Shown here one piece after another: positions 2,910 to 11,545 of a stretch of 64,000 nt of DNA; within the stretch, counting starts at the first letter, position 1, and every line of letters begins with the position of its first letter. A program made the translations under genes and the position numbers. The notes under the pieces are model-generated. The model was not told the origin of the DNA and ran no database searches. It saw nothing but the letters and a program-made list of their open reading frames with translations. The stretch comes from Erythrobacter sp. 3-20A1M (GTDB taxonomy: Bacteria; Pseudomonadota; Alphaproteobacteria; Sphingomonadales; Sphingomonadaceae). Location: contig NZ_CP045200.1 of assembly GCF_018636735.1 (NCBI RefSeq), positions 1,488,001 to 1,552,000 on the forward strand, written 5' to 3'.

Positions 2910-4049
2910 TCACTCCAGTCCCAGCAAAGCGCGCTTCTCGCCGTCGGTCAGGAAGTCGGCGGCGCTGACCTGCGCCCACAGCTTCTCGCGGTCCTCGGCC
3001 AGCGCGGGGATGCGGTCGAGATCGACCGACAGCCGGGCATCCGGGAACCACGGGCCAAGCCCCTCGGCCACGCCCGACAGGATTTTCCCCGCCAGCGGCA
3101 GCAGGGTGAGCCGCCACAGCGCGCGGTTGGCCTCGCGGTAATTGGCGTAGGTGTTGTCGCCCGGCAGGCCGAGCAGCATCGGCGGCACGCCGAAGGCGAG
3201 CGCGATGTCGCGCGCCGCCGCGGCCTTCAGCGTGGCGAAGTCCATGTCCGCCGGGCTCATCGCCATCGATTGCCAGGCCAGCCCGCCTTCCAGCAGCATC
3301 GGCCGGCCCGCATTCCCCTCGCCCGAGAAAGCGCGTTCCAGCTCGCCCTTCAGCCGCTCGAACTGCTCGCCCGTCAGCGCCATGCCGTCGCCCGGCTGGT
3401 GCACCAACGCGCCCGAAGGCCGCGCTGCATTGGCCAGCAGCGCGCGGTTCCACTCCGTCGCCGCATTGTGCGCGGCGACCGCACGCTCGGCGGCGGCAAG
3501 GCAGCCTGCGCCGTAATGGTCGTCGCCCGGATGGATCGATTTGAGATGCACGATCTCGGGCCAACCGTTCTCGTCCTCCAGCGGGATGGCAACCGTGCGC
3601 GCGCCGAGCCGGTACTCGTAGGACGCGGGCCAGCCGTCGGGGCCGGGCAGGATCGCCACCCGCTCGGGGCGCAGCGCGAACAGCTCCACCGGCGTACCCG
3701 CGCCGTCCTTCAGCACCTGCACATAGGCATTGCCGTGCAGCAGCAGGTGCGCCGCCAGCGTTTCGAGCAGCGACTGCCCGGCGGACGTCGCGCCGACCAG
3801 CTTCGCGAGCGCCGGATCGGTATCGGCCAGCGGCGCGCTGCCGACGCCCTCGGCCACGATCCGCACGCTGCGCTGCGCGACCGGGTTCTCCACGAACGCC
3901 TGCCGCAGCGCGCCGGAATAGTCGAACGGCCGATGCGCCGGACCGCCCTCGAAAGCGGTCGCCCACGGCGAAACGAACCCGCGCGCGATAGGCACGCGGG
4001 GAGCCGCCCCGCCCTTGAAGGCGGAAGCGATGGTAGTGAGGAAAGACAT
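2910..4049 (-). CDS. GTA portal protein (HK97 family)
   Basis: A 379-aa HK97-type portal protein (g3), the dodecameric DNA gate at the capsid vertex. Typical stretches are FVENPVAQRSVRIVAEGVGS, LLLHGNAYVQVLKD, a LHLKSIHP-like segment, WNRALLANAARPSGAL, the AFGVPPMLLGLPGDNTYANY motif and WRLTLLPLAGKIL. Length matches GTA portals (about 380-400 aa). Unlike the usual layout, the terminase gene does not lie directly upstream; two opposite-strand lipoprotein genes intervene, leaving about 60 bp between the divergent portal and lipoprotein starts. The portal may therefore need its own promoter there or rely on antisense read-through from terminase. Confidence 0.95.
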   Translation of the reverse strand: MSFLTTIASAFKGGAAPRVPIARGFVSPWATAFEGGPAHRPFDYSGALRQAFVENPVAQRSVRIVAEGVGSAPLADTDPALAKLVGATSAGQSLLETLAAHLLLHGNAYVQVLKDGAGTPVELFALRPERVAILPGPDGWPASYEYRLGARTVAIPLEDENGWPEIVHLKSIHPGDDHYGAGCLAAAERAVAAHNAATEWNRALLANAARPSGALVHQPGDGMALTGEQFERLKGELERAFSGEGNAGRPMLLEGGLAWQSMAMSPADMDFATLKAAAARDIALAFGVPPMLLGLPGDNTYANYREANRALWRLTLLPLAGKILSGVAEGLGPWFPDARLSVDLDRIPALAEDREKLWAQVSAADFLTDGEKRALLGLE

Positions 4050-4600: not shown

Positions 4601-5082
4601 GAAGAAGTCCTGCAGCATTTCGAGCAAGCCTGCTCGTTGGCCTCACCATGCTGCTGACCGGTTGTTCCTACATCTACGACATAACGGCAGAACTCCGCGG
4701 CGGGGAACTGGTATTCACCAGCGGGAAGGACTGGTTTCGCGAACGGTGCGTGCGCGAGATCGCAGTGATTGCCGCTGATCGAAGGGATCGCGCCGAGGCG
4801 GCGCCGGGCGATGACGCCAGCCGCGGGGGCTTTGGCATGTACTGGCGCGACGTCGTCGGTTATCACTGCGCCAATCGTTTTCCGATTGGCTACGGGCAGC
4901 GGCTTGCCGGTGAGGCATTGCCCGAGGGACAGGCGACCGGAACCGTCAGTGCGAAGCCGCTCAAGATCGGCGTGGTATATGACGTTCAAACGGTTTCCGG
5001 TGCCACCGGCTATGGCAGCGGGCGGTTTGTAATCCGGGCGGATGGCACTGTTCAAAATTTTGGCACCTCGAAGCGCGACTAG
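4597..5082 (+). CDS. Putative lipoprotein inserted in the GTA cluster (second of two)
   Basis: A 161-aa lipoprotein of unknown function. It begins MRRSPAAFRASLLVGLTMLL followed by a good lipobox, LTGC (Cys23), and continues as a small, exported domain with several cysteines (RERCVREIAV, YHCANRFPIG). It is coupled to the preceding lipoprotein gene by ATGA (4597-4600). Its TAG stop interlocks with the TAG of the convergent terminase gene in the 4-bp sequence ctag (5079-5082), so the insertion left no spare sequence on that side. I cannot assign a role; an accessory cargo of the GTA locus or an independent surface lipoprotein are both possible. Confidence 0.75.
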   Translation: MRRSPAAFRASLLVGLTMLLTGCSYIYDITAELRGGELVFTSGKDWFRERCVREIAVIAADRRDRAEAAPGDDASRGGFGMYWRDVVGYHCANRFPIGYGQRLAGEALPEGQATGTVSAKPLKIGVVYDVQTVSGATGYGSGRFVIRADGTVQNFGTSKRD

Positions 5083-6449
5083 AACCCGACTACCTGAGGC
5101 CTCCCAACCCGCCCCAGCATCAGCTCGGTCAGCGCCCAGACCAGCGCGTCGGCGCGGTCGGGCGAGCGGCCCGGGCCTTCGTAGCCGCCGCCCGCCATCA
5201 GGCCGCACAGCTCGTCCTCCAGCTTCGCGAACAGGGCGGCGTGGCGCACGCGGCCGGCTTCGTAGAGCGCGGCGACCGGTTCGGCGCGGGCGGTCTTGCC
5301 GCGGCTCGCATGGACCAGCTTGACCGGCAGGGTGATCTCCGCCGCGCGTAGCACGCTGGCGACCATCGCGCCGCCCTGATTGGCCTCGGCCACCACGCGG
5401 TCGGCGTGCCATGCCGCCGCCGCCTCCGCCACCGCACGCGCCCAGCGTTCGGGGCTGGGGCGCTCCACGCTGGCATCGGCGAGGACCAAGGCGGTGCCGT
5501 CCGCCAGCAGCGCGGCGACCACGATGCCGCAGGCGTCGCCCTGCGCGCTGGCGGGCGGGTCGACGCCGATGACGACGCGCGACCACGCACCGTCCGGCGC
5601 TGGCCCACCCCCCGATCCCGTGCCGCAGGCGGGAGGGGAAGCAGCTTCGCGGCACCGCTCCAGCAGGGCGCGGCTCCACAGCGCGCCGTCGACTTCGGCG
5701 AGGAGTTCGCCGTTCAGTTCCTGCCGGCCGAAGCTGGTGCCCGCATATTGCCGCTCGATCACCGCGATGAAGCCGGGCGAGAGATTGCGCGCATTGGCGA
5801 GCGTGGTGCCGCCGGTCACCACCGTGCCCTCGTCCGCGATCAGCCGCCGGACCAGCGGCACCGCGCGCGGGGTGGTGGTCACCACGCTGCGCGGATCGCG
5901 CCCGAGCCTGAGGCCGAGCTGGAGATTGTCCCAGCACGCCTCCGCCCGGCTGGTGCTGGCGGGCCATTTCGCCAGCTCGTCGCACCAGGCGTGGCTGTGC
6001 TGCGGGCCGCGGAGGCTTTCCGGCTCGGCGGCGGAATAGAGCCGCGCCTCCGCCCCACCCGGCCAGCGCAGCAGGTTCTTCGACGGCTCGAAGCGGGGGC
6101 GCTGCTTCGCGCCCGCCACCGCCAGCAGACCGCTCGGCCCCTCGACCATGATCGCGCGCGCCTCGGCCAGCGAGGCCCCGACCAGCGCGATCCGCGCGGT
6201 GCCGTCGGCCTGCGCGACGGCGCGGGCCCATTCGGCCCCCGCGCGCGTCTTGCCGAAGCCGCGGCCCGCCATCAGCAGCCAGGTCGACCATTCGCCCGGC
6301 GGGGCGATCTGGCCGTCATGCGCCTGGAGTTCCCAATGCTTGTCGAAGGCGAGTCGTTCGTCTTGGGCCATGTCCTGTATGAAATCGGCCCGTCGGCCGC
6401 GCCTTATGCGACCGAGATAGCGACCGCGTGCGTCCGCCATCTCAACCAT
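5079..6449 (-). CDS. GTA large terminase subunit (DNA packaging ATPase/nuclease)
   Basis: A 456-aa large terminase (g2) that pumps host DNA into GTA heads. Walker A is AGRGFGKT (residues 61-68) and the Walker B/catalytic Glu is in AWCDELAKW (about 154-162). The C-terminal RNase H-like nuclease shows VVIGVDPPAS, VVAEANQGG and PDRADALVWAL with the expected acidic residues. GTA terminases package about headful lengths without a specific pac site. I start at ATG 6449 because GGAGGA lies 5 nt upstream; this overlaps the preceding gene by 8 bp. A second ATG at 6440 is possible. The stop interlocks with the convergent lipoprotein gene. Confidence 0.95.
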   Translation of the reverse strand: MVEMADARGRYLGRIRRGRRADFIQDMAQDERLAFDKHWELQAHDGQIAPPGEWSTWLLMAGRGFGKTRAGAEWARAVAQADGTARIALVGASLAEARAIMVEGPSGLLAVAGAKQRPRFEPSKNLLRWPGGAEARLYSAAEPESLRGPQHSHAWCDELAKWPASTSRAEACWDNLQLGLRLGRDPRSVVTTTPRAVPLVRRLIADEGTVVTGGTTLANARNLSPGFIAVIERQYAGTSFGRQELNGELLAEVDGALWSRALLERCREAASPPACGTGSGGGPAPDGAWSRVVIGVDPPASAQGDACGIVVAALLADGTALVLADASVERPSPERWARAVAEAAAAWHADRVVAEANQGGAMVASVLRAAEITLPVKLVHASRGKTARAEPVAALYEAGRVRHAALFAKLEDELCGLMAGGGYEGPGRSPDRADALVWALTELMLGRVGRPQVVGF

Positions 6450-7050
6450 GCGCGTCCTCCGGCGGCAGGTCGCCATCTTCGCGCCGCATCCGGTCGATCA
6501 GGTCGTTGATCGAGGCGATGACCTCTTCTTCGGAGCGCTCATCCTGGCTCGCGCGAATTTCCGCGATGGTCTGGCGATGCGCGGCGAGCAGGCGGATCGC
6601 GTTGGCGACGTCGATCCTGCGGTCCGGCAGGTTGCCGCGCAGATGCGCCAGCACCTCCATTTCCAGATGCTCGTACCCCTCGTGCAGCGCGGCGCGCCAC
6701 TTCCGCGCGAAGGCGGGATCGTCGCGGCGCTTCTTGTAGGCGGTTGCGACGGGCACGTTGGCGGCGCGCGCGCTGGCCGAGACGCTGGAGCTGTGGGCCA
6801 GCTCCTCCAAAAACGCGGCGCGCCAGTGCGGCGGGGGCGGGGCGGTCTGCCCGCGCAGGGCCTTGCGCTGGCCGGCCTCGCGCGCCGCATCCCATGCGCG
6901 GGCGAGCCGCGCATCGTGCCGCCGCCGGTGATAGGCGGTGGACCGCTCCACCCCGGCCTCGCGAAAGGCCTCGGCCACACTCCCTCCCCTGCGAAGCGCG
7001 GCGAGGAACGGCTCCTCCCACGTCCGCCGTTCCGCATTGCTGGCGGTCAT
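6442..7050 (-). CDS. GTA small terminase-like DNA-binding protein (g1 position)
   Basis: A 202-aa protein directly before the large terminase, the place of GTA g1 (small terminase). It contains two tandem, clearly related helix-turn-helix modules: residues ~14-58 (FLAALRRGGSVAEAFREAG, then STAYHRRRHD) and ~79-125 (FLEELAHSSSVSASARAAN, then ATAYKKRRDD). The C-terminal third is a long helix with DVANAIRLLAAHRQTIAEI and an acidic tail. Small terminases bind DNA and feed it to the large subunit. This is the first gene of the visible GTA operon, and a transposon begins only about 120 bp upstream of its ATG. Function is inferred from position and fold. Confidence 0.8.
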   Translation of the reverse strand: MTASNAERRTWEEPFLAALRRGGSVAEAFREAGVERSTAYHRRRHDARLARAWDAAREAGQRKALRGQTAPPPPHWRAAFLEELAHSSSVSASARAANVPVATAYKKRRDDPAFARKWRAALHEGYEHLEMEVLAHLRGNLPDRRIDVANAIRLLAAHRQTIAEIRASQDERSEEEVIASINDLIDRMRREDGDLPPEDAHG

Positions 7051-7162: not shown

Positions 7163-7170
7163 TTTCTCTA
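7163..7170. repeat. Left 8-bp target-site duplication
   Basis: The octamer tttctcta lies immediately outside the left inverted end and is repeated exactly at 10756-10763 outside the right end. IS1595-family elements are known to duplicate 8 bp on insertion. Confidence 0.9.
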
Positions 7171-7195
7171 GGCGTTTATGTCGTTTACAAACCCA
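7171..7195 (+). repeat. Left terminal inverted repeat of the transposon
   Basis: Reads inward GGCGTTTATG, a two-base variable step, then TTTACAAACCCA. The reverse complement of 10731-10755 matches it at 21 of 25 positions, the mismatches falling at positions 5, 8, 12 and 13. Confidence 0.9.
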
Positions 7196-7638
7196 AGAGA
7201 AAGAACACCGCTCGCAAGGCGGAATAACCTAGGAAACACAGGGCCATAAACAGCAGGGTTCCGAATTCGAGGTCCTGCAATGACGGTGGCTTTCGCATGC
7301 CGCCGGGTAACCGATACGGTTAGATTTAGGAAAGGTCTTTGCGCGGAAGCGCGGAATGAATCTATTTGATTCAAAGCTGGCAATGCCATTCACCGCACTG
7401 GTGATTCGTTTCGTCGCGGTTTCAGCACGACTCACCTTGCAAGTAGGATTTAATATATCTAGATCGCGTTTAACAGGGCTTGAGGGGGGTGTGAGTCGAG
7501 CCATGATGATTGATCTAACAGCACTGAGCACAGCAGAGCGCGATGATTCTAAGGTTGAAGAACCTCGGCGGGCGCTTGACTATCCTAAATCCGAGCCAGT
7601 ACTCGAAAGCTCCTACATATTTCCGAAGGTAGAGAGCA
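7196..7638. other. Left non-coding arm of the transposon
   Basis: About 440 bp between the left inverted end and the first cargo gene. Both strands have short open frames (for example 7229-7531 minus and 7356-7694 plus) but none has a convincing start, composition or protein-like sequence. I see no tRNA or clear terminator. It probably holds the promoter of the proteinase gene. Confidence 0.5.
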
Positions 7639-8468
7639 ATGGCGGATGGAAATTCGCAGCACCCGGCGTTATCGCAATTTCCACGGACTGCTGACCTTAC
7701 GTCTCAATCGCCGAAGTATTGGGCGAAGGAGAAAGATCGCTACCTCCGGCAATTGCTGATCCTTGATATCGAGGAAATTACCGGCAGACCATTGATGGTC
7801 TGTTTTTCGCAGCTCAATCAGCCCATCAATCATACCGATCCGGACGATATCGCTGAGATTATACAGGCGATTGATGGCGATGCATGCGATATCTTGATCC
7901 AGACCCCCGGGGGTTCGGTGGATGCCTGTGAAAAAATCATCTCCGTCCTGAGTAAGAAGTTCTCGGATTATCGCGTGATTGTTCCGAGCTGGGCGAAATC
8001 GGCCGGTACGGTAATTGCGCTTTCATCGAACGAAATCGTGCTGGGCATCAACTCTGAGTTAGGCCCAATAGACCCGCATCAGGCAATCAACGGAATGAGT
8101 GTTCCGTCATTGCTCAAGACCAAACGCTACCGCCACACGTGCGTACGATGGCTGACTTGAGCGCACAACGAATGCGACAGATGGCATTCGATATCCTCGA
8201 AAAGGGTATGATGAGCGGTAAGGATCATACCGAAGTCAATGATGTCCTGAACAAGATTTCGGACACTGCGGGGTATAAGTCGCACGGTGCGGTGATAGAT
8301 TTTGATGAAGCTAACGCACTGGGACTCAAGGTTTCATTTCTAGAGCCAAGCGATCTGCTTTGGCGGCGCATTTGGCTGCTCTATTGCCTTTATGATTACG
8401 ATATGCGGCTAAAGCAACTCGGCAAGATATTCGAGGGTAACAAGTTCTCAATCGGTCGACCTGCCTAA
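7639..8468 (+). pseudogene. SDH-type Clp-fold serine proteinase, broken by one frameshift
   Basis: Two frames together encode one ~276-aa protein of the serine dehydrogenase proteinase (SDH)/SppA-like Clp fold. Frame one (from ATG 7639) has DILIQTPGGSVDACEKI and the nucleophile Ser121 in SWAKSAGTVIA, then NSELGPIDPHQ with the usual Asp. After about position 8118 the family sequence continues in another frame (QTLPPHVRTMADLSAQRMRQ to GKIFEGNKFSIGRP). One missing C in the accaaacg run near 8118-8124 explains the break (an extra C gives KTQTLPPHV). It is transposon cargo. Either a real inactivation or a sequencing indel; the C-terminal half is otherwise well kept. Confidence 0.8.
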
Positions 8469-8603
8469 TTTGCTGTCAGCCTTTGCGATCTTCCCTAGCC
8501 GTTCCTTAAAGCGCACCTCGTCTTCGTCGCATTCTAGGTCGCGCGCGGCTTCCTCAAACTTTTGCCTTTGACTCTTTTCGATTTTCGGGGTTGCTTCTGG
8601 CAT
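8448..8603 (-). CDS. Small charged protein beside DUF3800, transposon cargo
   Basis: A 51-aa, highly charged, helical protein (MPEATPKIEKSQRQKFEEAA, then DLECDEDEVRFKERLGKIAK). Proteins of this kind, with the LECDEDE...FKERLGKIA pattern, recur next to phage and mobile-element genes in alphaproteobacteria, in my recollection often beside DUF3800 genes. GAGG precedes the ATG at 8603; an ATG at 8606 is also possible. Its start region overlaps the divergent DUF3800 start (8605), and its 3' end overlaps the end of the proteinase frame by 21 bp. Function unknown. Confidence 0.6.
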   Translation of the reverse strand: MPEATPKIEKSQRQKFEEAARDLECDEDEVRFKERLGKIAKADSKLGRSTD

Positions 8604-8604
8604 C

Positions 8605-9468
8605 ATGTCCTCGGAACAAAAAGAATGCGGGTACATAGCCTACATTGATGAGGCTGGCGACCCAGGCCTGAAAACCGTGCGCCCAATCGATCCGAACGGG
8701 GCGAGCGAATGGCTTGTTCTGAGCGCAGTCGTAATGAAGGCTGAGTGCGAACCCGTCGTTATCGATTGGGTTCGCGAACTAGTCGATGATCTTGGCATCA
8801 GTCAGAGAAGAGACCTCCACTACCGAACGCTGTCGCCGACGAGGAAACGTGTGGCTGGCGAGCGTATTGCTTCGCTGCCATTGCGCGGGTTTGCAGTCTG
8901 TTCAAACAAGAAGAACATGCGAGGTTATCGGAACCCGCGAGCTGAGAAAATCCCATCTCAACAGTGGTTCTATAATTTTTGTGTTCGATTGCTGCTGGAG
9001 CGTGTGACCGCCTTTTGTGATAGGCGCACCATCGATGATTACGGAGAGCGCCGGAAGATCAAAATCGAGTTCTCAGAGCGTGGCGGGCACCGATACAGCC
9101 AAACGAGTGCCTACCACTATTATCTCAGGCAACAGCAGCAAGCAGGGGCTCTCTACCTCACAAAGCGCGCACCGGTAACCGACTTGCTCGACTGGCAGAT
9201 GATGGAAGCCCACCCCCATGGGGATCGTGCCGGACTCCAGCTTGCTGATTTCGTGGCGAGTTCATTTTACCAAGCAATCGACACTGGCGGATCGAGTAAC
9301 TGGAACCTTGAACCCGCGCTAGCGCTTGCGCCTGTCATGGCGCGTGAAGGGCGATCGCAGAAAGATTTTGGGGTAGCGCTTTTCCCCTCCCGATGGTGGG
9401 AGGCGAAACTGTCGAAAGAACAGCAGCAAATTTTCCGCCACTACGGTTACGAGTTTGCAAGGTGGTAG
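8605..9468 (+). CDS. DUF3800 protein, transposon cargo
   Basis: A 287-aa DUF3800 protein. Signature features are YIDEAGDPGL near the start (residues ~10-19), a central RRDLHYRTLSPTRK stretch, IEFSERGGHRYS, and LQLADFVASSFYQAID near residue 215. DUF3800 proteins have an RNase H-like core with conserved acidic residues and are frequent on mobile elements and in defence islands; the biochemical role is not established. The frame is intact. Start at 8605 is supported only by the frame; the start codon is embedded in the divergent start of the small protein (catcatg at 8601-8607). Confidence 0.85.
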   Translation: MSSEQKECGYIAYIDEAGDPGLKTVRPIDPNGASEWLVLSAVVMKAECEPVVIDWVRELVDDLGISQRRDLHYRTLSPTRKRVAGERIASLPLRGFAVCSNKKNMRGYRNPRAEKIPSQQWFYNFCVRLLLERVTAFCDRRTIDDYGERRKIKIEFSERGGHRYSQTSAYHYYLRQQQQAGALYLTKRAPVTDLLDWQMMEAHPHGDRAGLQLADFVASSFYQAIDTGGSSNWNLEPALALAPVMAREGRSQKDFGVALFPSRWWEAKLSKEQQQIFRHYGYEFARW

Positions 9469-9721
9469 GCCCCCAGCACCCGGATCTTACGCGCTTTTAG
9501 GCTGTCATCCAAAGGACAACCGTCACGCAAGGGGTGGCCCGTTCTTTACCTCGGGCCACAGGGCTTATCTGGCGTTGCCTACCGCCTGCTCTTTGAGCCG
9601 AAATGCGGGCAGTTGTCAAGATTCATCTAGCGATTCCAAAAACTTAAAGCTAAGTTGTTGAAATAGATTCGGAATATCTTGACGGAAGCGACTCGGGCGC
9701 GCCCGTCTCCCTCGGCCACGA

Positions 9722-10687
9722 TTAGGCAGAGACGTTATCCCGCCGATAGGTGATGCGCTTGCCGACAATACCCTTCACCGCTTCTGCGCCACGCTGGCGA
9801 TCATCGAAGCCGTTCGCGGTACGAGTGTTGTAGCGAAACTCGTACTCGGCAAGGTAGCGGTGCAGGTGATGCTCGCCACAATGCTGGTACACGCCGCGCA
9901 TACCGCGCTTGAAGATGGAGAACGCGCCTTCGACGGTATTGGTGTGGATGGTGCGATCCTTGGGGCTCACAAACTCCATGCGGGCATGGGTGGTGGTGCC
10001 ATGCTCGGCAAAGTCGCGGCCAATCTTGCGGTACATCTTGGCCTCGTCCGTCATAAGGCGGGCTTCGCGGGCGATGTTGTTGAGAACAATAGGGTGGATC
10101 TGATCGGCGGTGCTGCTGTCGATCTTGAACCAACGGCTCTGGCCGCTGTCACGGTCCACCAGCGCGACAACGCCGTGCTTGTGGTGAGTACCGCGACGGG
10201 TGGGAACGTCACGCTTGAAGCCGATGTAAGTCTCGTCAACCTCAACCGCGCCGCCTTCGCTGCCGAAGGGCTGGGCAAGGTCGCCGGAGCGCATCGCTTC
10301 GCGGATACGGTGGGCCAGGAACCACGCGCTCTTGTAAGTAATCTCTAGAACGCGGTGGAGCTGGTGGGCGCTAATGCCCTTCTTGCTCGACACCATGAGG
10401 TGAACGGCCTGCAGCATCTTGTGAAGCGGGATGCGCGCATGCTCGAAAACGGTGCCGACCTTCACGGTGAACTGCTTACGGCACTCACCGCACTTTTTCA
10501 GGCCGTGGCGAACCTTGCCCTCGGGGTGCTTCTTGCTCGGCTTAGTGCGAACACCCGAGAGGTCATACACGCGGCCATCGATCGCACCGCAATGCGGGCA
10601 AACCACTCCGTCCGCCCACACGATGCTTTCCAGATACTCGAAAGCCTTCGCTTCATCGTGGAAATAGGGGGAAGAGAGAACCGACAT
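9722..10687 (-). CDS. IS1595-family (ISXO2-like) transposase
   Basis: A 321-aa transposase. The N-terminus has a zinc ribbon (VCPHCG and KKCGECRKQF) followed by the FTVKVGTVFEHARIPLHKML segment typical of IS1595 proteins. The DDE domain shows VEVDETYIG (first Asp), LMTDEAKMY (second Asp) and NTVEGAFSIFKRGMRGVYQH (Glu with the H-rich end). It is intact. I chose ATG 10687, preceded by CGGAG about 11 nt upstream; an ATG at 10723 is in frame but lacks a ribosome site. The gene reads leftwards from close to the right inverted end, so it points towards the cargo and the GTA cluster. Confidence 0.93.
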   Translation of the reverse strand: MSVLSSPYFHDEAKAFEYLESIVWADGVVCPHCGAIDGRVYDLSGVRTKPSKKHPEGKVRHGLKKCGECRKQFTVKVGTVFEHARIPLHKMLQAVHLMVSSKKGISAHQLHRVLEITYKSAWFLAHRIREAMRSGDLAQPFGSEGGAVEVDETYIGFKRDVPTRRGTHHKHGVVALVDRDSGQSRWFKIDSSTADQIHPIVLNNIAREARLMTDEAKMYRKIGRDFAEHGTTTHARMEFVSPKDRTIHTNTVEGAFSIFKRGMRGVYQHCGEHHLHRYLAEYEFRYNTRTANGFDDRQRGAEAVKGIVGKRITYRRDNVSA

Positions 10688-10730
10688 GGTGAAAATGCTC
10701 CGTTGTTGAGCATTATCTAGCACTTACCGC

Positions 10731-10755
10731 TGGGTTTGTAAAGTACACAATCGCC
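10731..10755 (-). repeat. Right terminal inverted repeat of the transposon
   Basis: On the plus strand it reads TGGGTTTGTAAAGTACACAA followed by TCGCC; its reverse complement starts GGCGATTGTG and ends TTTACAAACCCA, matching the left end at 7171-7195 at 21 of 25 positions. Confidence 0.9.
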
Positions 10756-10763
10756 TTTCTCTA
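10756..10763. repeat. Right 8-bp target-site duplication
   Basis: The octamer tttctcta, identical to 7163-7170, sits directly outside the right inverted end. Confidence 0.9.
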
Positions 10764-10900
10764 ACCAAACAGCGTCACGATGTCAATAGAAAAGTGCCAA
10801 ATGGGTTAACAGAGGCGTGATTGCCTCGGTTTCACGGTTCGTCTAGGCGATGCGCGCCGCCGCTTGCCCGGCGCGCGATTACGGGAAGGGCGCGCAGCCG

Positions 10901-11545
10901 ATGATCAGGGGTCTCTACAACTGGGTGCTGGACAAGGCGGCGCATCGCCACGCGGTATGGTGGCTGGCGCTGTTCTGCTTCGTGGAGGCGAGCTTCTTTC
11001 CCGTTCCGCCGCACCCGCTGCTGGGCCTGATGTGCCTGGCCGAGCCGAAAAAGGCCCTGCGCTTCGCCGCCGTGGCCACCGCCAGCTCGGTCCTCGGCGG
11101 GTTCCTCGGCTACGCCATCGGCTGGGGGCTGTACGACACTGTGGGGGAGCAATTGCTCGCCGCACTGCACCTGACCGAGAGTTTCCCCGTCGCCGCCTGC
11201 TATCTGCGCGAGGCGGGCTTCTGGATCTTCGTGGCCAAGGGCGCGACCCCGATCCCGTTCAAGCTGTTGACGATCACCGCCGGGTTCATCGGGATGAACC
11301 TCGTTACCTTCTTCTTCGCGGCGGTGATCAGCCGCGCGATCAGCTTCATGATCGTCGGTGTCCTGTTCCGCCTGTTCGGTGCCCCGATCAAGCGCTTCAT
11401 CGACAAGTATCTCGGCCTCGTCACCGCGGCGTTCATCGTGCTGGTGGTGGGCGGAGTGCTGGCCGTCACGCTGCTGGAGGGCGGCGACGGGGCGCAGGAC
11501 CGCTGCGCCGGTGCGACGCAGGTCCATGCGGGGCCGCTCGGCTAG
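10901..11545 (+). CDS. YqaA/DedA-type (VTT domain) membrane protein
   Basis: A 214-aa inner-membrane protein of the YqaA/SNARE-associated (VTT) family. Several hydrophobic helices are visible: WWLALFCFVEASFFPVPPHP, the AATASSVLGGFLGYAIGWGL re-entrant-like stretch, ITAGFIGMNLVTFFFAAV and AAFIVLVVGGVLAVTLL. The motif FPVPPHPLLGLMCLAEPKKA is typical of the YqaA branch. DedA-superfamily proteins are linked to phospholipid flipping and envelope homeostasis. I start at ATG 10901 (MIRGLYNWVLDKAAH) rather than 10850; GGAAGG lies upstream. It is the first chromosomal gene to the right of the transposon. Confidence 0.85.
   Translation: MIRGLYNWVLDKAAHRHAVWWLALFCFVEASFFPVPPHPLLGLMCLAEPKKALRFAAVATASSVLGGFLGYAIGWGLYDTVGEQLLAALHLTESFPVAACYLREAGFWIFVAKGATPIPFKLLTITAGFIGMNLVTFFFAAVISRAISFMIVGVLFRLFGAPIKRFIDKYLGLVTAAFIVLVVGGVLAVTLLEGGDGAQDRCAGATQVHAGPLG

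Follow-up and report, generated by a model that had tools for sequence, protein, structure and literature searches.

The 64-kb window analysed here, the whole stretch of 64,000 nucleotides from Erythrobacter sp. 3-20A1M, carries a complete cargo transposon of the IS1595 family that appears to interrupt the promoter of an rcGTA-type gene transfer agent (GTA) cluster at its predicted -10 box. We put at about 0.7 the probability that this element is a member of an IS1595-type cargo transposon lineage homing to the -10 region of this promoter in Sphingomonadales. Judged from sequence, members of the lineage have precise ends and duplications and sit at the same position within one base across genera, in both orientations, and many uninterrupted sites exist. 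Each of ten genomes checked has one such copy. The small protein is constant among the elements, and their other cargo is exchanged rapidly. The novelty is the insertion site, the GTA promoter, together with one constant small protein that has exchangeable partners. L-numbers denote loci, G-numbers denote genomes, and coordinates given without an L-number are positions in the window.

Structure and recurrence of the element

The element measures 3,585 bp (7171-10755), with terminal inverted repeats (TIRs) that agree at 21 of 25 positions and a perfect 8-bp target-site duplication, tttctcta, on both sides (Table 1). This TIR pair is the longest among seven inverted pairs listed, and the sole good end pair beside the transposase with an exact 8-bp duplication, the runner-up reaching 13/22 with 7/8. 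The transposase matches DDE_Tnp_IS1595 (4e-32) and Zn_ribbon_IS1595, an N-terminal zinc ribbon, in Pfam, as well as IS1595 in NCBIfam (9e-52). With transposase, TIRs and 8-bp duplication all present, the element is an IS1595 family transposon with precise ends, as a preceding sequence-only reading of the window had described it. The IS1595 transposase is the sole one, no Tn7-like TnsA, TnsB or TnsC being found among the scanned open reading frames (ORFs) of the element. The host genome (one contig, 3.1 Mb) has a single match to this transposase.

The transposase was searched over 396 Sphingomonadales genomes, 40 neighbourhoods being fetched, and 79 further named loci were drawn from a scan of a species-genome collection. 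A TIR pair with a duplication of 7-8 of 8 bases was present in 42 of the first 44 loci, the window included (L097 and L098 had none), and the automatic end search found a TIR pair with duplication in 60 of the 79 further loci. After dropping 12 duplicates, L097 and L098, the final set holds 109 loci, with both ends mapped in 90 and a full-length transposase in 103. As fragments, L166, L169, L171, L174, L175 and L179 were excluded from the address counts.

As for empty sites, seven of nine congeners hold the terminase small subunit gene and the DedA-like gene adjacent, with the site in single copy, and all nine other genomes of the genus keep the flank genes, which in the window are the two terminase subunits and the portal of a GTA cluster on the left and the DedA-like gene on the right, inside one 6-kb stretch. 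The two occupied congeners (L029 and L032) have different IS1595 elements, with other cargo, at the same spot. The sequence-only reading had named two outcomes that would speak against it, relatives showing no insertion boundary and ends that do not recur around IS1595 transposases; both were checked and neither was seen.

Insertion address

The close-relative set consists of 36 full-length loci, the window included, whose transposase is at least 75% identical to that of the window. Of these, 35 sit in the GTA promoter, in hosts from at least four families of Sphingomonadales; the remaining one, L112, is elsewhere. For 32 loci the assignment is based on matches to the terminase small subunit (TerS), the terminase large subunit (TerL) or the portal protein within the 4-kb flank or, for elements with an unmapped far end, beyond the transposase. 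The promoter motif alone placed L120 and L123, and L107 was placed by DedA together with a motif made incomplete by Ns in its contig. Once element and one duplication copy are taken out, the duplication begins at +23 or +24 from the first base of TTGACA in 28 of 29 loci (12 at +23 and 16 at +24), the exception being L109 at +41. With a 17-bp spacer, this position corresponds to the -10 hexamer. The address, the predicted -10 box of the rcGTA-type cluster promoter, is strongly supported.

The transposase and the GTA genes have the same direction in 32 of the 35 loci and opposite directions in three (L104, L126 and L132). The left junction retains the -35, the spacer and the -10, and the first conserved transposase codon lies 65-68 bp inside the element in 30/30. 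All 36 close-relative transposases are open. In the order sample of 396, such a transposase occurs as a single copy in ten genomes, in every case at the GTA promoter (L071 was placed by motif and portal).

The 22-bp promoter core, TTGACATCGTGACGCTGTTTGG, has one occurrence in the host genome at up to three mismatches. A survey of 199 family genomes with a looser motif gave 98 places in 85 genomes, 80 of which were fetched for a downstream gene check; the 18 omitted were six known occupied, one known uninterrupted, nine not starting with TTGACA and two others. A TerS or TerL match starts at most 0.8 kb downstream in 65 of the 80 (65 genomes) with no transposon between; for one of them, L290, only the later part of TerL was matched. 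The sole IS1595 match in the 80 fetched stretches is in L300, about 4.8 kb downstream of the motif. Of 80 Sphingopyxis genomes, 39 have the uninterrupted site, which is absent from the three known occupied ones. The remaining 15 of the 80 motif sites, including L255 and L256 (G535) and L280 and L281 (G260), had no TerS or TerL match just downstream, and could be other GTA-regulated promoters or diverged clusters.

Judged by its genes, the target is an rcGTA-type cluster, with co-oriented terminase, portal, capsid and tail genes, including an Rcc01698-type domain. Large GTA proteins are present in occupied genomes and were aligned with those of uninterrupted ones. Of 15 reference GTA ORFs, nine, which include the large structural proteins, have no stops in the window genome and align at 93-100%; two align only partly. 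A DUF6456 gene, which we take to encode a GafZ-type domain, was found in 14 of 14 genomes checked (ten occupied genomes of the order sample, G297, G301 and two uninterrupted ones) and, among 14 control genomes, only in Caulobacter. In the Caulobacter GTA promoter the GafZ element lies between the -35 and the -10, and GafZ-dependent antitermination has been shown, this being the single target of GafZ, according to PMC11150451.

Transposase tree and insertions elsewhere

On the transposase tree, the 35 GTA rows group with L072 and L112 in a clade of 37 rows (SH-aLRT 97). The GTA label changes 8 times, against 31.8 in shuffles, with 0 of 500 as low. Sister transposases in opposite orientation were found twice (window and L104; L126 and L129). 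Nine loci of the Sphingopyxis group have transposase DNA that is 83-94% identical and cargo sharing just 3-21%. Their left flanks are at 40-51% and the downstream side at 44-78% (L120 is unmapped and L123 lacks GTA genes there).

Outside this clade, six of 67 full-length loci carry a GTA-type flag. One is L092, described below. L144 and L181 are in the same promoter at +5, L165 and L172 precede TerL by about 0.77 and 0.25 kb, respectively, and L083 is not in the promoter and has a TerS-like match nearby. Of 59 rejoined sites of relatives outside the clade, 14 are at rho-independent terminators, compared with 11 of 1340 control windows. These relatives also use AT-rich 8-mers; terminator-like sites number 0 of 30 mapped in the GTA clade.

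Some individual loci were recorded as well. L092 (648-3477) holds a distant IS1595 element, 54% identical, at the same GTA-promoter base (+24) in opposite orientation, and the small protein was not found in it. Insertions in or adjoining the T-tract of terminators were seen in L078, L082, L084, L086, L091, L101, L102, L139, L154, L155, L162, L178 and others. L087, L096, L099 and L100 insert at repeated TTGACA/GTAAAG-like motifs (AGGGTGCT, AGCGTGCT, AGGGACAT and AGAGCTCT), perhaps another regulated promoter. L174 (6276-7235), at a non-GTA site, measures 960 bp; it retains both ends and the small protein, has a truncated transposase and is perhaps a non-autonomous form. Finally, L122 has a chrB-b RNA above threshold at 1775-1822, about 1.3 kb upstream of its element (element start 3125).

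Constant small protein

The layout of the elements is transposase, slot A, small protein and slot B. The small protein, of about 48 amino acids, is present in 58 of 58 mapped elements with a transposase at 57% or more (including L174 with its truncated transposase), and in 11 of 32 mapped elements below 57%. Its distances track those of the transposase (Mantel r 0.65, n=57; 0 of 2000 permutations), also within the clade (r 0.57, n=30; 0 of 2000 permutations). In terms of genomes, it occurs in 16 of 196; eight copies adjoin an IS1595 transposase or a fragment of one, and one more lies near a short fragment. No inverted-repeat ends were found around six orphan copies.

A known family was sought with 46 members against Pfam (E 1) and PHROGs (E 0.1), which returned scattered weak matches only, and no relative was found in the PDB up to E 1. 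The protein is predicted, at low confidence, as a helical hairpin. Its constancy alongside changing partners argues against a dedicated antitoxin of DUF3800.

Exchangeable cargo

The Pfam scan of cargo covered 44 of the 77 listed ORFs of the 37-row clade (L072 included), namely 40 sister ORFs and four of the window, one of them slightly lengthened. Above cut-off, DUF3800 was present in 12 elements and SocA_Panacea in three, while PIN, NYN, DUF5343 and helix-turn-helix domains were in one element each. PADLOC, run on 20 sister cargo proteins and five window proteins, reported BstA in L117 and L133, HEC-09 in L119 and L029, and a type II methyltransferase with a weaker restriction endonuclease in L110. 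PDC-M34A in L121 was a weaker match, and PbeC matched weakly in L105. The five window proteins gave no PADLOC match up to E 0.1. The earlier idea of a defence cargo thus finds backing in the sister elements (BstA, type II, HEC-09) and none in the cargo of the window itself.

The sequence-only reading had seen its novelty in a trio of proteinase, small protein and DUF3800, which did not hold up as a fixed module. The proteinase gene is probably split across frames and broken, because its ORF spans just positions 79-171 of the 286-position Pfam profile and the following ORF lies in another frame. The proteinase family did not turn up in any of the 40 sister cargo proteins scanned, and the small protein stays constant as its partners change. 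The small charged ORF was called at 8448-8636 (-), with the conserved start probably at 8606.

The DUF3800 protein has a predicted RNase H-like fold with conserved acidic residues, and may be a nuclease. The DUF3800-VII-type RNA candidate in the window (E 0.0017 for 305 bases) scores below the gathering score (Table 1). The Rfam scan covered 19 loci. Fourteen of them have a DUF3800-type gene, recognised by Pfam in 11, under cut-off in L110 and by eye in L133 and L072. Only in L132 did a DUF3800 RNA pass the threshold. In the 150-nt stretch separating transposase and DUF3800, fold z-scores were mostly lower (-0.9 to -4.0, 12 sites) than in six transposase controls (-1.2 to 1.2); the lower values are partly explicable by gene-end terminators.

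A tRNA with the anticodon TTA, which would read the stop codon UAA, was observed as cargo in five IS1595 elements, four of them in the GTA clade (Rfam tRNA 53-59 bits). Its body is presumably leucine-type. A tRNA-Thr is present as well in L116 and L127. For hosts that use the standard code, a stop-suppressor tRNA on a mobile element would be odd.

Table 1. Coordinates of the transposon, its neighbours in the window and the TTA-anticodon tRNAs of other loci
Feature	Position	Strand	Evidence or remark
GTA portal protein	2910-4049	-	
GTA terminase large subunit	5079-6476	-	
GTA g1, terminase small subunit	6442-7050	-	Pfam match under cut-off
Target-site duplication, GTA (g1) side	7163-7170	.	repeat comparison
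Terminal inverted repeat, cargo end	7171-7195	+	inverted-pair search
SDH-type ClpP-like proteinase ORF, partial profile coverage, probably broken	7639-8160	+	Pfam 3e-16
Overlapping ORF in other frame, possibly remainder of proteinase	8139-8468	+	without family match
Constant small protein, about 52 amino acids, start codon opposite DUF3800 start	8448-8606	-	conserved across relatives
DUF3800 protein, predicted RNase HII-like fold	8605-9468	+	2e-13
Candidate DUF3800-VII-type RNA	9459-9583	-	Rfam 27.5 bits, below gathering score 36.2
IS1595 transposase, conserved start codon MSVLSS at 10687	9722-10723	-	Pfam and NCBIfam
Terminal inverted repeat, transposase end	10731-10755	-	inverted-pair search
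Target-site duplication, DedA side; contains predicted -10 box TAGAGA (10758-10763, -)	10756-10763	.	
GTA promoter core TTGACATCGTGACGCTGTTTGG, predicted -35 at 10781-10786	10765-10786	-	reads into transposase
DedA-like membrane protein, divergent neighbour	10850-11545	+	VTT domain, under cut-off
TTA-anticodon tRNA, L116	8736-8823	-	
TTA-anticodon tRNA, L123	4385-4473	-	
TTA-anticodon tRNA, L127	1772-1859	-	
TTA-anticodon tRNA, L131	8547-8632	-	
TTA-anticodon tRNA, L143	8585-8671	-	

Discussion

We propose that the conserved promoter core lying between the -35 and the -10 is the feature recognised by the transposition complex. This core is unique in the host genome, and in Caulobacter it is the binding place of the antiterminator GafZ. 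GTA activation would read into the transposase, because the left junction keeps the -35, the spacer and the -10, and transposition would so be coupled to GTA-producing cells. RNA polymerase carrying GafZ may continue across the element as far as the GTA genes, in which case the insertion need not kill GTA production. The small protein would be part of the transposition core, and the cargo a module that earns its transport by protecting or addicting the host, in the window possibly DUF3800 with its candidate partner RNA. A bolder version, which we find doubtful, is that the lineage parasitises GTAs: the GTA switch would drive the transposase in particle-producing cells, and the element would ride the particles to relatives, re-enter the conserved promoter there and swap anti-phage modules at this single site.

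Several points weigh against homing to this promoter. The -35 and -10 of these hosts are deduced from spacing. L112 and L072, both in the 37-row clade, are inserted elsewhere, and L120 and L123 have the promoter and no GTA genes in the searched flank. Element size (2.25-3.84 kb) overlaps the sizes of non-GTA relatives. Four short or 5'-extended reference GTA ORFs show a stop in the window genome; the control, the single further uninterrupted genome compared, is too closely related to the reference to be informative here. In seven of the 16 genomes that encode the small protein, no IS1595 transposase was found near it. Lastly, terminator-like sites in 29 elements number 45 in the GTA direction and 75 in the other, weak ones included, and 11 against 11 for the strong ones. 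There is no clear strand bias, and some elements could therefore block GTA transcription; selection for read-through, also considered, is unsupported by these sites.

The shared address could instead reflect selection. Because producing GTAs is lethal to the cell, insertions silencing the promoter would be recovered regardless of what the transposase prefers. The insertion does sit on the predicted -10, some elements bear strong terminator-like sites in the GTA direction, and branches outside the main clade also strike the promoter (L092 at +24, L144 and L181 at +5) or land 0.25-0.8 kb upstream of TerL (L172 and L165). Silencing, however, should work anywhere in the cluster of about 14 kb and in either orientation, yet 28/29 insertions lie within one base and 32/35 in one direction. 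Moreover, nothing large is inserted at the 65 TerS/TerL sites (other insertion sequence families were not searched by name), the major GTA genes are open in occupied genomes, and sister subclades that share this small protein and this layout sit elsewhere. We regard selection in place of targeting as unlikely.

A broad preference of IS1595 elements for AT-rich spots that resemble promoters or terminators, with the GTA promoter merely one good spot among them, would account for the rho-independent terminators and AT-rich 8-mers used by relatives outside the clade. It is hard to square with the lack of terminator-like sites in the clade and with the very many possible -10 boxes per genome when 35 of 36 elements use the GTA one, and we give it a poor chance. 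The partial agreement between transposase tree and host groups recalls a single ancient insertion inherited by descent, its cargo exchanged later. Uninterrupted sites in seven of nine congeners and in 39 of 80 Sphingopyxis genomes make this highly improbable, as do the oppositely oriented sister transposases and the fact that transposases are more alike between hosts than their flanks are.

Homing of the transposon lineage to the -10 region is thus the reading that we favour. GTAs are widespread in Alphaproteobacteria and the reason for their persistence is debated. If true, targeting of the GTA switch would show that GTAs have parasites or riders of their own, would give a natural marker for GTA evolution and would make the coupling of GTA activity and mobile-element movement testable. 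For the study of target choice, a DDE transposase whose address is a promoter would make a useful model, and the exchangeable cargo is a compact catalogue of candidate defence modules. Should GTA parasitism also be real, GTA loci would be a distribution hub for defence genes.

Comparison with known systems

In the PubMed Central (PMC) literature, subscription papers being mostly outside the search, no report was found of an IS1595 or other transposon at a GTA promoter. PMC9208149, PMC6209633 and PMC3646047 mention IS1595 and GTA terms without linking them in their available parts, and those of PMC9836097 and PMC3925955 likewise give no such link.

The elements resemble IS1595 insertion sequences in DDE_Tnp_IS1595 with a zinc ribbon, ends of about 25 bp, 8-bp duplications and passenger genes. 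Some members of that family are said to carry such genes, as Siguier et al. reportedly described in 2009. The present lineage differs in its fixed GTA-promoter address, its constant small protein and its exchangeable defence-like modules. Tn7 and Tn7-like transposons also combine a conserved chromosomal address, attTn7 for Tn7, with cargo. That cargo includes defence systems, as stated in PMC8649781. In contrast to Tn7, the lineage described here has one IS1595 transposase, elements of 2-4 kb and the GTA promoter as its address.

ISAjo2 and the IS1202 family at dif/pdif are alike in keeping a fixed distance from a protein-binding site and one orientation, and differ in a transposase of another family and in elements of 1.5 kb (PMC10132070). 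LypABC, an immune-like system that controls GTA release, is a further case of defence-type genes tied to GTAs; it is a Caulobacter host system, and the part of PMC13236601 available does not describe it as a transposon. As for the Rfam DUF3800-VII and DUF3800-VIII RNAs, RNA candidates beside a DUF3800 gene are found in the window and L132, here carried as cargo of a putative GTA-homing transposon. Taken against these systems, the element is a transposon of a known kind whose address and organisation are new.

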